A stretch of 35,031 nt of DNA from an uncultured bacterium. GTDB lineage: Bacteria > Cyanobacteriota > Vampirovibrionia > Gastranaerophilales > Gastranaerophilaceae. Made by a program: the position numbers and the translations under genes. Where the stretch lies: assembly GCA_902765215.1 (NCBI GenBank), contig CACWZA010000019.1:1-35031 (forward strand), given 5' to 3'. Each line of letters opens with the position of its first letter. Within the stretch, counting starts at the first letter, position 1. Shown here piece after piece: positions 685-32,615 of this stretch. The notes beneath the pieces are model-generated. The model searched no databases. It worked only from the letters and a program-made list of their open reading frames with translations, and was not told the DNA's origin.

Positions 685-1191
685 ATGCCATTCAGATATA
701 AACTTCAAAAAATGCTCGACTGGCGTCAGCGTGAGAAAGAAAAGCAAGAAACTATCGTGAACAAAGCACGACAGAAACTTCGGCTTGCTGAACAGAGAAT
801 AGAACAAAATAATCAGGAAATACTACAGGTAACAACCGCAAGAAAAACTGCTGACTATTCGCTCATGGAATATTATGACAAATACCTTCACCACCTGTGG
901 GATAAAGCCGAACAACTTGAACAGGCAAGGAAAGAAGCGGAAGAAGAACTGAAAATAGAAATTCAAAAACTTATTGAATGTGAACAAAAAGTAAAAGTAC
1001 TTGATAAACACAAAGAAAAACAAAAAGAAATTTATCTGGAAGAAGAAAAAAGAGCAGAGCTCAAAAGGTTCTCCGAACTCGGGGTACAAAGACACTTCAT
1101 CCGTTCAAGAGAAGATATTGAAGAGCAGGAAATGATTGAACAAATGATGCGCGAAATGCAGGAAGATGAGCAAAGCGAACAACAAATTTAA
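685..1191 (+). CDS. fliJ: FliJ-like flagellar export coiled-coil protein
   Basis: A 168-aa, highly charged, almost entirely helical coiled-coil protein. It starts with the FliJ signature pattern F-x-Y-x-L-Q-K-M-L-D-W-R near residues 3-14, then has long Lys/Glu heptads. Residues about 107-130 (E-K-Q-K-E-I-Y-L-E-E-E-K-R) match the conserved second helix of FliJ/YscO stalk proteins. FliJ sits under the flagellar type III ATPase FliI and helps couple ATP hydrolysis and proton flow to export. The C-terminus is acidic and Gln-rich. A weak Shine-Dalgarno AAGAGA precedes the ATG. No other flagellar gene is adjacent, so the assignment rests on length, N-terminal motif and coiled coil; another coiled-coil protein is the alternative. 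Confidence 0.7.
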   Translation: MPFRYKLQKMLDWRQREKEKQETIVNKARQKLRLAEQRIEQNNQEILQVTTARKTADYSLMEYYDKYLHHLWDKAEQLEQARKEAEEELKIEIQKLIECEQKVKVLDKHKEKQKEIYLEEEKRAELKRFSELGVQRHFIRSREDIEEQEMIEQMMREMQEDEQSEQQI

Positions 1192-5881: not shown

Positions 5882-6853
5882 ATGAATAAGAAGAAATTTT
5901 TAATAATAATGTCACTTTTAGTGTTATGCTTGGGAGCAATAGGGGTTATTGCGGAAGATTTGATTATTGAATCTAAAACACAAAGTTTTAGTGAAGAAGA
6001 CAGCCGTATCAAATTTGACGGTGATGTCAAAGTTAAATACGGAGATATCAATCTGGTTGGTGACAGAGCAGATGTTACGGTTAAAAACAGCAAACTTCAT
6101 ACTGCGACCTTCTATGACAAACCTTATGCATACGAAATCAAAAACAACAAGAAAAGAGAAGTAAAAGCAAACATACTTAAATTCTCTCTTTTAAATAAAG
6201 TTATTAAAGCTGAAGGTGACACCCAAACAATCATCACCGAAGGTCAGACACCTGTTGCGGTAATCAATGCCGATGAACAGGAATACAATGTAAATACAAA
6301 CATAATGACAGCAACAGGTTCAGTTGCAATAAAATATAAAGACATAAACGCATACACCGATAAAGCGGTTATCCATACGGATAAACACGGCGAATTAAAA
6401 AGAATTGACCTTATCGGCAGAGCGAGAATTGACCAGTCTAAACACCACGCAACGGCTAATCATTTCATATACGAAGCAGACAAAGAACAAATGACTGCAA
6501 TGGGTGAGGCCGTTACTTCAACCATTTTGGATAACGGTAAAGAATTTGTACTTAAAGCAAATTACCAACAATACAACAAAAAAGAAGGTATCTTTATCGG
6601 GAACGGAAATGTAAGAGCATGGTACGATAACTATTATGCTAAAGGCCCTAAGGTTGTATGCTACCCTGACAAGGTGACAAATAAACCTCAGGAAGTATTT
6701 ATGATAGGTCGTTCTACTATCAAAGAAAATGAAAAAGATATCACGGCAGATAAAATTAAAGTTATTATCGAACCTAAAAACTTCACAGCCGAAGGTAATG
6801 TAAGAACAGTTATTCACCAGGCAGGTGTTTCAAGCGAAAAAGCAGGGTTCTGA
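5882..6853 (+). CDS. lptA: LptA/OstA-like periplasmic LPS-bridge protein
   Basis: Periplasmic protein of the LPS transport bridge, here 323 aa and longer than the roughly 185-aa E. coli LptA. The signal peptide is K-K-K followed by a hydrophobic core, with probable cleavage after V-I-A at about residue 22. The rest is repeated OstA beta-strand units marked by G-D-V-K-V-K-Y-G-D-I, G-S-V-A-I-K-Y-K-D-I, G-N-V-R-A-W-Y and a final E-G-N-V-R-T-V, each followed by A-D-K-A-type segments. Two ATGs are adjacent; AAGGA at 5871-5875 is better spaced for 5882 than for 5879. It is co-transcribed with lptC and, after 3 bases, the TPR gene. Confidence 0.87.
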   Translation: MNKKKFLIIMSLLVLCLGAIGVIAEDLIIESKTQSFSEEDSRIKFDGDVKVKYGDINLVGDRADVTVKNSKLHTATFYDKPYAYEIKNNKKREVKANILKFSLLNKVIKAEGDTQTIITEGQTPVAVINADEQEYNVNTNIMTATGSVAIKYKDINAYTDKAVIHTDKHGELKRIDLIGRARIDQSKHHATANHFIYEADKEQMTAMGEAVTSTILDNGKEFVLKANYQQYNKKEGIFIGNGNVRAWYDNYYAKGPKVVCYPDKVTNKPQEVFMIGRSTIKENEKDITADKIKVIIEPKNFTAEGNVRTVIHQAGVSSEKAGF

Positions 6854-24002: not shown

Positions 24003-25601
24003 TTATGTACCACCCCAGTTAAATACTGATTTGATATTGTTAGATTTTAATGTCTTAACAGATTCAATTTCAGTATTTACGGAAGTCAATTCCGTAGAGA
24101 GGTTGGTAATTTCAGAATCCCAGTAGGTTTCTTTTTCTGAGATTTTTTGTTGTTCTACGTTAAACCAAGCCGTAATCTTTTCTCTCATTTCCGTAGATAA
24201 TTTTTCGGAAACGTAATTCATGTGAGAAAAATACGTCAGAGTTGTATTCTTCTTTTCAATACCGGTAGCAGGATCAACCATAGCAAGTTGATAGAAACCG
24301 GATCTCAAACCATCCTGCAACAATTCTGTATCAAGTGCATTATTATACACTGTCTTTGTTTCAGGATCTGCTACATATTTAGCCTGAGCAGAGGATTTTG
24401 TTATTTCAACTGCCTTAATTGATGCGTGAGTTTCGTTACCTTCTCTTGTAATCTTGAAATAATGTGTTCTGCCATCAGCTGCAGGTAATGTAATGTAGTA
24501 GGTTGCAGATTTCAGCCAGGAACCGCTGCCTGTATCCTGAACCGGATTAATCGAATTTAATTTCGCAAGAATCTGGCTTGCTGTATAATTATTCGGATCA
24601 AAACTTAATACATTACCACTTATGTCATAAACAGTGTTAAGCCCTCCTGTAACATTTTGAGGCAACTTTATAGTAACATTACCCGAACCGGAATAACTCA
24701 TATCATAAATTTTATTTAAAGAATCGCCTTCTTTAACACTTGTAGTAGTACCATTCTGAATTGCCGCACTAATAATCGGAGCAAAATAACTTATCAGGTT
24801 ACCAAAATACTTAGCCTGCTGTGAATTTATAGCGGTAGAGAAACCACTGGCACGACCTGTCCATAAACCACTGGTTACAATTGAATTAGTAGTACTATTA
24901 ACCTGATAACAAGTACCCGGTACCAATGAAATCAATTGATCTGCAGTACCATTTTTCGCACCTTCAAGTGACTTATAATATTTGCCGCCACTTGTATATA
25001 CAATACCTCCATCATTATAACCACCATTCTTCAAAATAGGAATTAACTGGTTAACAAGTCTTTCTCTCGCAGTCAAACTTTGTTCAGTTCCGCCTCTGGA
25101 ACCGTCTGCATAACACTGTGCCAAATTGTTAAGTGCTTCACAAGATGTTCTGTTTAAGAAAATAAAATCTAATAAACCTTCTAAGGTTTGGTGTGCAACA
25201 TCCTGATGACCATAATCTGCTTTAGCCTGTGCTGCAATTTCAGCAATTTCTGCACCGACAACAACCTGACCTAAATAGTCAGTCAAAATCATTCTGTTTT
25301 CAGTCTTTTTCTCAAATGCAGTACCGCCGATAGCTATTTCCTGCAGGAAGTCATCAGCATACATTTCGTCTGTACGCTCACGCTGACCCATCAAATAGTC
25401 ATAAGTAACATCCTGATAACCGTTGTCACTTGCATACTGAACATTTGCAGCCTGCAATCTGGAATAATAGGTTTGAGCCAGCTCAGTAGATTTACGCGTA
25501 AGCTGCATTTTACGCTTAGTATCTATTTGCATTTCAAGCTCGATATCAGCCTTACGATTCGTAAGAGCCAAAAGTCTAACTTGTGATACCGCTAAACCCA
25601 T
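24003..25601 (-). CDS. Uncharacterised 532-aa protein with helical ends, sigma-28 promoter
   Basis: I do not recognise a named family. The N-terminal 70 residues are helical without a signal peptide (M-G-L-A-V-S-Q-V-R-L-L-A-L-T-N-R-K-A-D). The middle (about 200-400) is Ser/Thr/Gly/Asn-rich and probably beta. The last 60 residues form a coiled coil with Ser/Thr heptads, ending F-N-W-G-G-T. Helical ends around a variable core are the plan of flagellin and hook-associated axial proteins and of substrates exported by flagellar-type systems. The promoter upstream matches the flagellar sigma-28 consensus, which supports a late flagellar or exported product. GGAG lies ten bases before the ATG. Confidence 0.75.
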   Translation of the reverse strand: MGLAVSQVRLLALTNRKADIELEMQIDTKRKMQLTRKSTELAQTYYSRLQAANVQYASDNGYQDVTYDYLMGQRERTDEMYADDFLQEIAIGGTAFEKKTENRMILTDYLGQVVVGAEIAEIAAQAKADYGHQDVAHQTLEGLLDFIFLNRTSCEALNNLAQCYADGSRGGTEQSLTARERLVNQLIPILKNGGYNDGGIVYTSGGKYYKSLEGAKNGTADQLISLVPGTCYQVNSTTNSIVTSGLWTGRASGFSTAINSQQAKYFGNLISYFAPIISAAIQNGTTTSVKEGDSLNKIYDMSYSGSGNVTIKLPQNVTGGLNTVYDISGNVLSFDPNNYTASQILAKLNSINPVQDTGSGSWLKSATYYITLPAADGRTHYFKITREGNETHASIKAVEITKSSAQAKYVADPETKTVYNNALDTELLQDGLRSGFYQLAMVDPATGIEKKNTTLTYFSHMNYVSEKLSTEMREKITAWFNVEQQKISEKETYWDSEITNLSTELTSVNTEIESVKTLKSNNIKSVFNWGGT

Positions 25602-25638
25602 TTATACGATACTCCATATTCTAGTCCTAATATTCTAC

Positions 25639-25665
25639 TTATCGGCATATTTTCTTAAAACTTTA
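25639..25665 (-). promoter_or_regulatory. Consensus sigma-28 (FliA) promoter
   Basis: On the minus strand TAAAGTTT (25658-25665), an 11-base spacer and GCCGATAA (25639-25646) match the enterobacterial sigma-28 consensus at all 16 specified positions. The start site would be near 25632, giving a 5' leader of about 30 bases. Confidence 0.88.
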
Positions 25666-32099: not shown

Positions 32100-32615
32100 T
32101 TAAATTCCCAGCATGTATCTTGTACTTGCTGCCTGCATATCCATTGCATAATACATGGATGAATTAGATGCAGTAATATCGTTATATTGTGTTGTTAATT
32201 GAGATAACTGTGCCTGATAATTTTGTACCTGCTGAAGTACCTGAGGATTGTATGCTGCTTCTGATATCATTGTTCTGATTTCGTTAGAAATTGCCGCAGT
32301 AATTTCTTCAAAAGTATCTTCCTGTGATACAGAAATTCCAAGTTGTTCGGCTAATGTTTTTGCTTCCGAAATCAATGAAGATTCTGAAGAAGTACCGTTT
32401 TGTTCCTCTGCAGGTTTTTCCTGATTAGCAGCATATACATCGAAACTTTTTTCTGCCTGTCTTGCCGCTATAAGGGATAACGCCTGTGATTCAGATGATA
32501 CTAAGGCAGGATCGATACCCAGAGATTCAAGTTTACGCTTTGTTGAAGCCGAAATCTGGTTAGGTTGAACCGTCTGGTTATTATTGCCATATTTTATTGA
32601 ACTTAATAGTGACAT
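32100..32615 (-). CDS. Uncharacterised 171-aa helical protein
   Basis: Not recognised. It is a Gln/Ser/Ala-rich, mostly helical protein without a signal peptide, membrane helix or Cys. The N-terminal third contains T-K-R-K-L-E-S-L-G-I-D-P then Q-A-L-S-L-I-A-A-R. A Glu/Ser-rich linker follows, then a C-terminal helix pair (Q-V-Q-N-Y-Q-A-Q-L-S-Q-L, ending M-D-M-Q-A-A-S-T-R-Y-M-L-G-I). Composition recalls proteins exported by flagellar or type III systems and their chaperones. GAAAGG lies in front of the ATG. Its upstream region shares CATGTT/AACATG sites with the 532-aa gene, and a weaker sigma-28-like promoter is visible. It is divergent from glmS. Confidence 0.72.
   Translation of the reverse strand: MSLLSSIKYGNNNQTVQPNQISASTKRKLESLGIDPALVSSESQALSLIAARQAEKSFDVYAANQEKPAEEQNGTSSESSLISEAKTLAEQLGISVSQEDTFEEITAAISNEIRTMISEAAYNPQVLQQVQNYQAQLSQLTTQYNDITASNSSMYYAMDMQAASTRYMLGI

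Follow-up and report, generated by a model that had tools for sequence, protein, structure and literature searches.

An exact sigma-28 promoter ahead of a protein with constant helical ends apparently leads to a sigma-28 regulon and a separate flagellum-type export apparatus in Gastranaerophilales

The stretch of DNA analyzed here (35,031 nucleotides, nt, of contig CACWZA010000019.1 from GenBank assembly GCA_902765215.1, an uncultured member of Gastranaerophilaceae; hereafter, the window) encodes on its minus strand a protein of 532 amino acids (aa), whose gene is preceded by a sequence identical to the consensus of promoters recognized by the sigma factor FliA, or sigma-28. The FliA consensus governs late flagellar genes. 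The relevant features of the locus are as follows:

25639-25665, minus strand: sigma-28 (FliA) promoter, with the -35 element TAAAGTTT at 25658-25665, a spacer of 11 nt and the -10 element GCCGATAA at 25639-25646
25625-25636, minus strand: conserved leader block AGAATATTAGGA just 3' of the -10 box, identical in L075, L076 and L077
25612-25615, minus strand: GGAG, probable ribosome-binding site judged from the sequence, similarly placed in three orthologues
24003-25601, minus strand: open frame of the 532-aa protein, assigned to the MGLxxSQxR family by alignment and profile
25434-25601, minus strand: conserved N-terminal module, residues 1-56, with a predicted long helix at 2-49
24006-24194, minus strand: conserved C-terminal module, about residues 470-532, with a predicted long helix at 470-530

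The box TAAAGTTT-N11-GCCGATAA agrees with the FliA consensus in 16 of 16 bases, and its spacer reads TAAGAAAATAT (25657-25647, minus strand). An earlier, sequence-only reading of this DNA was correct about the strand of the box and the 11-base spacer, but the distance to the ATG at 25601, given there as 38 bases, measures 37 nt from the -10 box; the transcript would be expected to start near 25632. At up to three mismatches, 0.76 matches are expected by chance in the window, and this box has no mismatch. It is the sole exact match in the whole 2,154,469-base genome, and the near-matches from the same scan led to genes that share the N-terminus of the 532-aa protein. Orthologues in three other genomes, 52% (L075), 38% (L076) and 34% (L077) identical, retain an equivalently positioned box with AGAATATTAGGA and GGAG after it, although the aligned box in L075 is weaker (TAAAGATT-N11-GTCGATAT). 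Given that this footprint persists next to neighbor genes that differ from those in the window, the box is probably maintained by selection and not by shared surroundings. With up to three mismatches allowed, the pattern is barely enriched in the genome (84 occurrences compared to 72 for a reversed control), so that the argument depends on the conservation of the box and on the identity of the genes that have it. This small excess is what favors a chance match, with FliA unrelated to the gene; such a match is highly improbable in view of the unique 16/16 agreement, the retention in orthologues and the enrichment, described below, upstream of the family in many genomes at spacings of 11-12. Thus, the promoter proposed by the sequence-only reading is borne out.

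The 532-aa protein contains no known domain in Pfam or NCBIfam. It belongs to a family in which about 56 conserved N-terminal and about 60 conserved C-terminal residues enclose a variable middle part; M1, G2, S6, Q7, R9, L11, T14 and R16 are invariant or nearly so, and the C-terminus typically ends in N-I/V-E/D-x-T/S-F-K/G. A profile built from the 56 N-terminal residues finds 16 places in the source genome, two of which are one sequence at two contig ends, leaving 15 paralogues, the complete ones ranging from 224 to 1008 aa. Copies are present in all 146 genomes of the order Gastranaerophilales, and the named contigs that encode relatives belong mostly to gut and rumen assemblies labeled Candidatus Gastranaerophilales or Melainabacteria. 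Among 47 members scanned, no Pfam family covers the family's members, and flagellin domains match neither these nor the 532-aa protein. GLUG repeats or an N-terminal region of the M26 type occur in individual members of this unnamed family; e.g., GLUG repeats in the variable middle of the member at L049:3769-5502 (minus strand) score 37.9 bits, over the cut-off. The GLUG motif occurs in surface and adhesin-like proteins.

The AlphaFold model of the 532-aa protein is weak as a whole (mean pLDDT 61), but helices 2-49 and 470-530 are mostly of high confidence, the middle being poorly resolved. In a 196-aa relative (L118), two long helices are predicted to form a good pair, with a less certain short middle. 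Fold matches for the latter are generic coiled coils alone (V-ATPase subunit D, prefoldin, PspA), and the match of the 532-aa model to flagellar filaments is not significant (E about 0.5-0.7). Constant helical ends around a variable middle would fit a protein that is exported or of axial type, so the suspicion of an exported protein in the sequence-only reading stands as far as architecture goes, while export itself is something we infer and the axial or cap role also proposed there is a candidate function.

The sigma-28 box recurs across the family. A strong box, defined as at least 12 of the 16 consensus bases at spacing 11, lies upstream of 44 of 88 family genes in the relatives and of 28 of 561 other genes in the same loci (5%; p 5e-25, a value that, as the family genes are related, does not come from independent events). 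In the same 88 upstream regions, the reversed consensus yields 3 matches, the opposite strand 4, a scrambled consensus 2 on average and shuffled sequence 2.3, and the preferred spacing peaks at 11 and 12. Within the source genome, 12/16 is reached by 8 of the 13 paralogues scored, compared to 12 of 255 controls; with a looser -10 element and spacings of 10-12, a pattern drawn from the same data, most of the paralogues match.

Other genes are found with similar sequences. Two unrelated proteins of 130 and 144 aa (L044:4905-5297 and 6416-6850, both minus strand; contig C21 of the source genome) stand behind good sigma-28-like boxes with TGCCGTAAA and TGCCGTTAT and are possible additional members of the regulon. 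Small proteins encoded at 32100-32615 of the window (minus strand; no family found in Pfam or NCBIfam), L237:767-1273 and L042:2150-2593 share a region of the form LxxLGI/V, and a sigma-28-like box (12/16) is located 43 nt before the start of the second of these.

The sequence-only reading had named fliA and flagellin as genes to be sought in the genome. The first is present: the source genome encodes one FliA (C43:3773-4435), which scores 229.8 bits against TIGR02479 (cut-off 189.6). The second was not found, in that PF00669 has no match in this 97% complete genome. Across the order, FliA occurs once each in 145 of the 146 genomes, the exception being an 88% complete genome, whereas flagellin is present in 50 and has no match in 96, so that nearly all flagellin-less genomes retain FliA. 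A hook search with FlgE_D2 is uninformative, as it returned nothing in the 146 genomes, the flagellated ones included, nor in Bacillus subtilis. Among flagellin genes of flagellated relatives, run as a positive control, 5 of 18 tested reach 12/16; the box is thus not on all flagellins, but because some of these genes carry it too, a single FliA probably serves both flagellins and the family in flagellated relatives. At L237:4605-6365 (C15 of the source genome), the gene immediately after flhB encodes a sigma-factor-like protein of 216 aa, which scores 57.5 bits against the FliA model, below the cut-off.

All 146 genomes contain a match to the FlhA family. The full-length copies fall into two classes by score: type 1, at about 860-890 bits, which also takes in a partial copy at 817 bits, and type 2, at about 720-740 bits. 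Among the matches listed, type 1 is confined to flagellin-bearing genomes (48 of 50). Type 2 heads the matches of nearly every genome without flagellin and is seen in many, not all, of those with it; G040 and G117, both flagellin-less, have a partial copy as their best match, and in G008 the best copy scores below both classes. For FliP the same division is seen in full: 20 flagellin-less genomes have one copy, and 12 flagellin-bearing ones carry the same kind along with a second, better-scoring copy. In a tree of FlhA, the type 2 proteins cluster together whether or not their genomes have flagellin (100/100). Type 2 proteins are 76-97% identical to one another, 36-39% to type 1 and 36% to Escherichia coli FlhA, to which type 1 is 41-43% identical. 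In the source genome, the sole full-length FlhA and the sole FliP are of type 2, without type 1 copies, and all five proteins of the export gate (FlhA, FlhB, FliP, FliQ and FliR) are encoded. The type 2 genes of this genome, and one further gene of the window, are:

C12: FliE, FliF, a 361-aa protein, FliH and FlhA
C2: a SpoA protein, FliO, FliP, FliQ and FliR
C15: FlhB
C10: FlgB, FlgC and two FlgF/G proteins (rod-type)
Window 685-1191, plus strand: FliJ-like export protein (TIGR02473, E 1.7e-8; PF02050, E 1.9e-4; both below cut-off)

The order of genes in the C12 and C2 groups is repeated in relatives, and the FliJ-like protein, to judge from its profile matches, probably belongs to the same type III export apparatus. 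The FlhA of the source genome scores 703 bits against the flagellar model and 591 bits against the SctV model (cut-off 692), below both cut-offs, and its FliF scores 56 bits against the SctJ model (cut-off 162); neither protein reaches the curated cut-off that would mark a non-flagellar injectisome.

Two further observations concern this apparatus. A soluble-looking 490-aa protein (L043:9394-10866, plus strand; about 106393-107865 of C2 in G000, the source genome) lacks the membrane part of FlhA and ends in its cytoplasmic domain (147.7 bits, profile positions 321-655), and genomes throughout the order seem to have such a partial FlhA match as a second copy. A short version of the family without a middle domain, 108-114 aa in length, is found in the source genome and two relatives in a conserved four-gene cluster (L047:311-3860, L211:12585-15202 and L212:10560-13457), together with a member of the MGMAASQARY type, a glycine-rich protein of 272-283 aa and a protein of 89-90 aa. 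In G001 and G016, about 8-9 kb separate this cluster from fliE-flhA of type 2. By size only, the helical short member is a candidate needle or tip part.

In the literature, the incomplete sets of flagellar genes in Gastranaerophilales are interpreted as decay or loss (PMC3787301, PMC4040986). In particular, Soo et al. (PMC4040986) report complete flagellar sets in 3 of 9 genomes and infer losses, Utami et al. (PMC5877343) describe a termite species as likely motile, and the gene list of ACD20 in Di Rienzi et al. holds two flhA genes. Such a degenerating flagellum would make FliA and its promoters a relic and the 532-aa protein a flagellar accessory, in agreement with the published reading and with the presence of rod and export genes where flagellin is missing. 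The retained FlhA and FliP, however, are not of the flagellar kind: relatives with flagella encode the two types side by side, and type 2 remains intact, at the same 76-97% identity, with and without flagellin; the family, moreover, is larger in genomes that lack flagellin (median 10 compared to 5, p 3e-14). Degeneration accordingly appears improbable. Given that type 2 FlhA and FliP occur with or without flagellin and type 1 only alongside flagellin, the partial gene set is best interpreted as a conserved type III export apparatus in its own right. Of the flagellar or flagellar-export regulon suggested by the sequence-only reading, the export-type regulon is supported by the box, FliA and the family enrichment, whereas a flagellum in this genome is not supported: because flagellin is missing and FlhA and FliP are of type 2 only, a flagellum-type export system distinct from the flagellum is the better home for the regulon.

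Family and apparatus share an order-wide presence in the 146 genomes. In two genomes (L150, L152), the type 2 SpoA-FliOPQR operon has a divergently oriented family gene beside it; another family gene, with its own box, lies directly 3' of fliA in G079; and in L093 a distance of about 2 kb separates a third from rod genes of type 2. The findings on promoter, family and apparatus taken together are best compatible with the 532-aa protein being a FliA-controlled substrate of the type 2 export system, a reading to which we assign a probability of roughly 0.6.

Several points weigh against this assignment. The adjacency to apparatus genes amounts to a few cases, little above a rough chance estimate of about 3 in 80 loci, and is suggestive but no proof of a link; the occurrence of both partners in all genomes leaves no variation by which the link could be tested. 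A strong box is missing upstream of half of the family genes, and in the source genome three paralogues of the MGMAASQARY/MGLAASQARY type have none even with the looser pattern. Fold searches yield generic coiled coils only, and FliI was not located in the genome stretches read, where no search aimed at it was made. Finally, transcription, export and assembly are deduced from sequence, comparison and prediction. This indirect footing for export, along with the resemblance of the coiled-coil ends to many intracellular proteins, leaves room for a repurposed regulon, as with WhiG in Streptomyces, in which FliA drives transcription but the encoded coiled-coil protein stays in the cytoplasm or envelope and is not exported by a type III system. 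This is unlikely, if far from negligible, given that the family follows a flagellin-like plan with many paralogues, occasionally has adhesin-like middles of the GLUG or M26 type, and is retained alongside the export machine across the whole order.

If the 532-aa protein is indeed a substrate of the type 2 system, the following mechanism can be envisaged. FliA would direct RNA polymerase to 25639-25665, as the promoter sequence and its conservation suggest, and the gene would be transcribed as one of a dispersed set of 15 paralogues. According to alignment and prediction, the products have two long terminal helices able to pair as an antiparallel coiled coil, with middles that differ and mostly lack known domains. 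They would then be exported by the type 2 apparatus, which is derived from the flagellum and kept across the order regardless of the flagellum. Outside the cell, the helical ends would most likely assemble into a surface fibre or tip, which could display the variable, sometimes adhesin-like, middle domains. The finding leads beyond the single gene to a sigma-28 regulon and an apparently distinct type III export machine that span an order of gut bacteria. The broader proposition, that Gastranaerophilales of the gut possess an undescribed flagellum-derived type III machine, order-wide and apart from flagella, which assembles a surface structure from proteins other than flagellin or secretes a large and modular protein family under sigma-28, seems to us evenly poised. 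No earlier description of a second export system or of the MGLxxSQxR family in this group was found in the literature consulted. If the proposition is true, the partial flagellar sets are not decay but a conserved separate export machine with its own sigma-28-controlled proteins; the machine becomes a new candidate for contact with the host or with neighbors, as these bacteria inhabit human and animal guts; and a deep, independent branch is added to the history of flagella and injectisomes. The role of sigma-28 without flagellin also becomes a directly testable question.

Among known systems, the FliA late regulons of E. coli, Salmonella and B. subtilis share with the one described here the promoter consensus, the spacing, a true FliA and targets that are probably exported by a flagellum-type apparatus; here, however, flagellin is missing and the targets are an unnamed protein family. 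Sigma-28 in bacteria without flagella has precedents in WhiG of Streptomyces and sigma-28 of Chlamydia. These likewise retain the factor without flagella, but in Gastranaerophilales it is accompanied by a large set of paralogues that share constant ends and by an order-wide export apparatus. FliA kept without flagella in Legionella oakridgensis is cited in PMC12199754. The family resembles flagellin in its conserved helical ends, variable middle, many paralogues and FliA promoter, but has no sequence match to it and coexists with true flagellins in 50 genomes. The type 2 apparatus resembles that of flagellar type III export in that FlhA, FlhB, FliP, FliQ, FliR, FliO, FliE, FliF, FliH, SpoA and rod proteins are recognized by profile, and differs in an FlhA that is 36-39% identical to flagellar FlhA, falls under the equivalog cut-off and occurs without flagellin. 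With injectisomes it shares a flagellum-related export apparatus without flagellin, a FliF that also matches SctJ and an FlhA that also matches SctV; unlike them, it is closer to the flagellar models (703 compared to 591 bits) and retains rod genes of the FlgB/C/F/G type.
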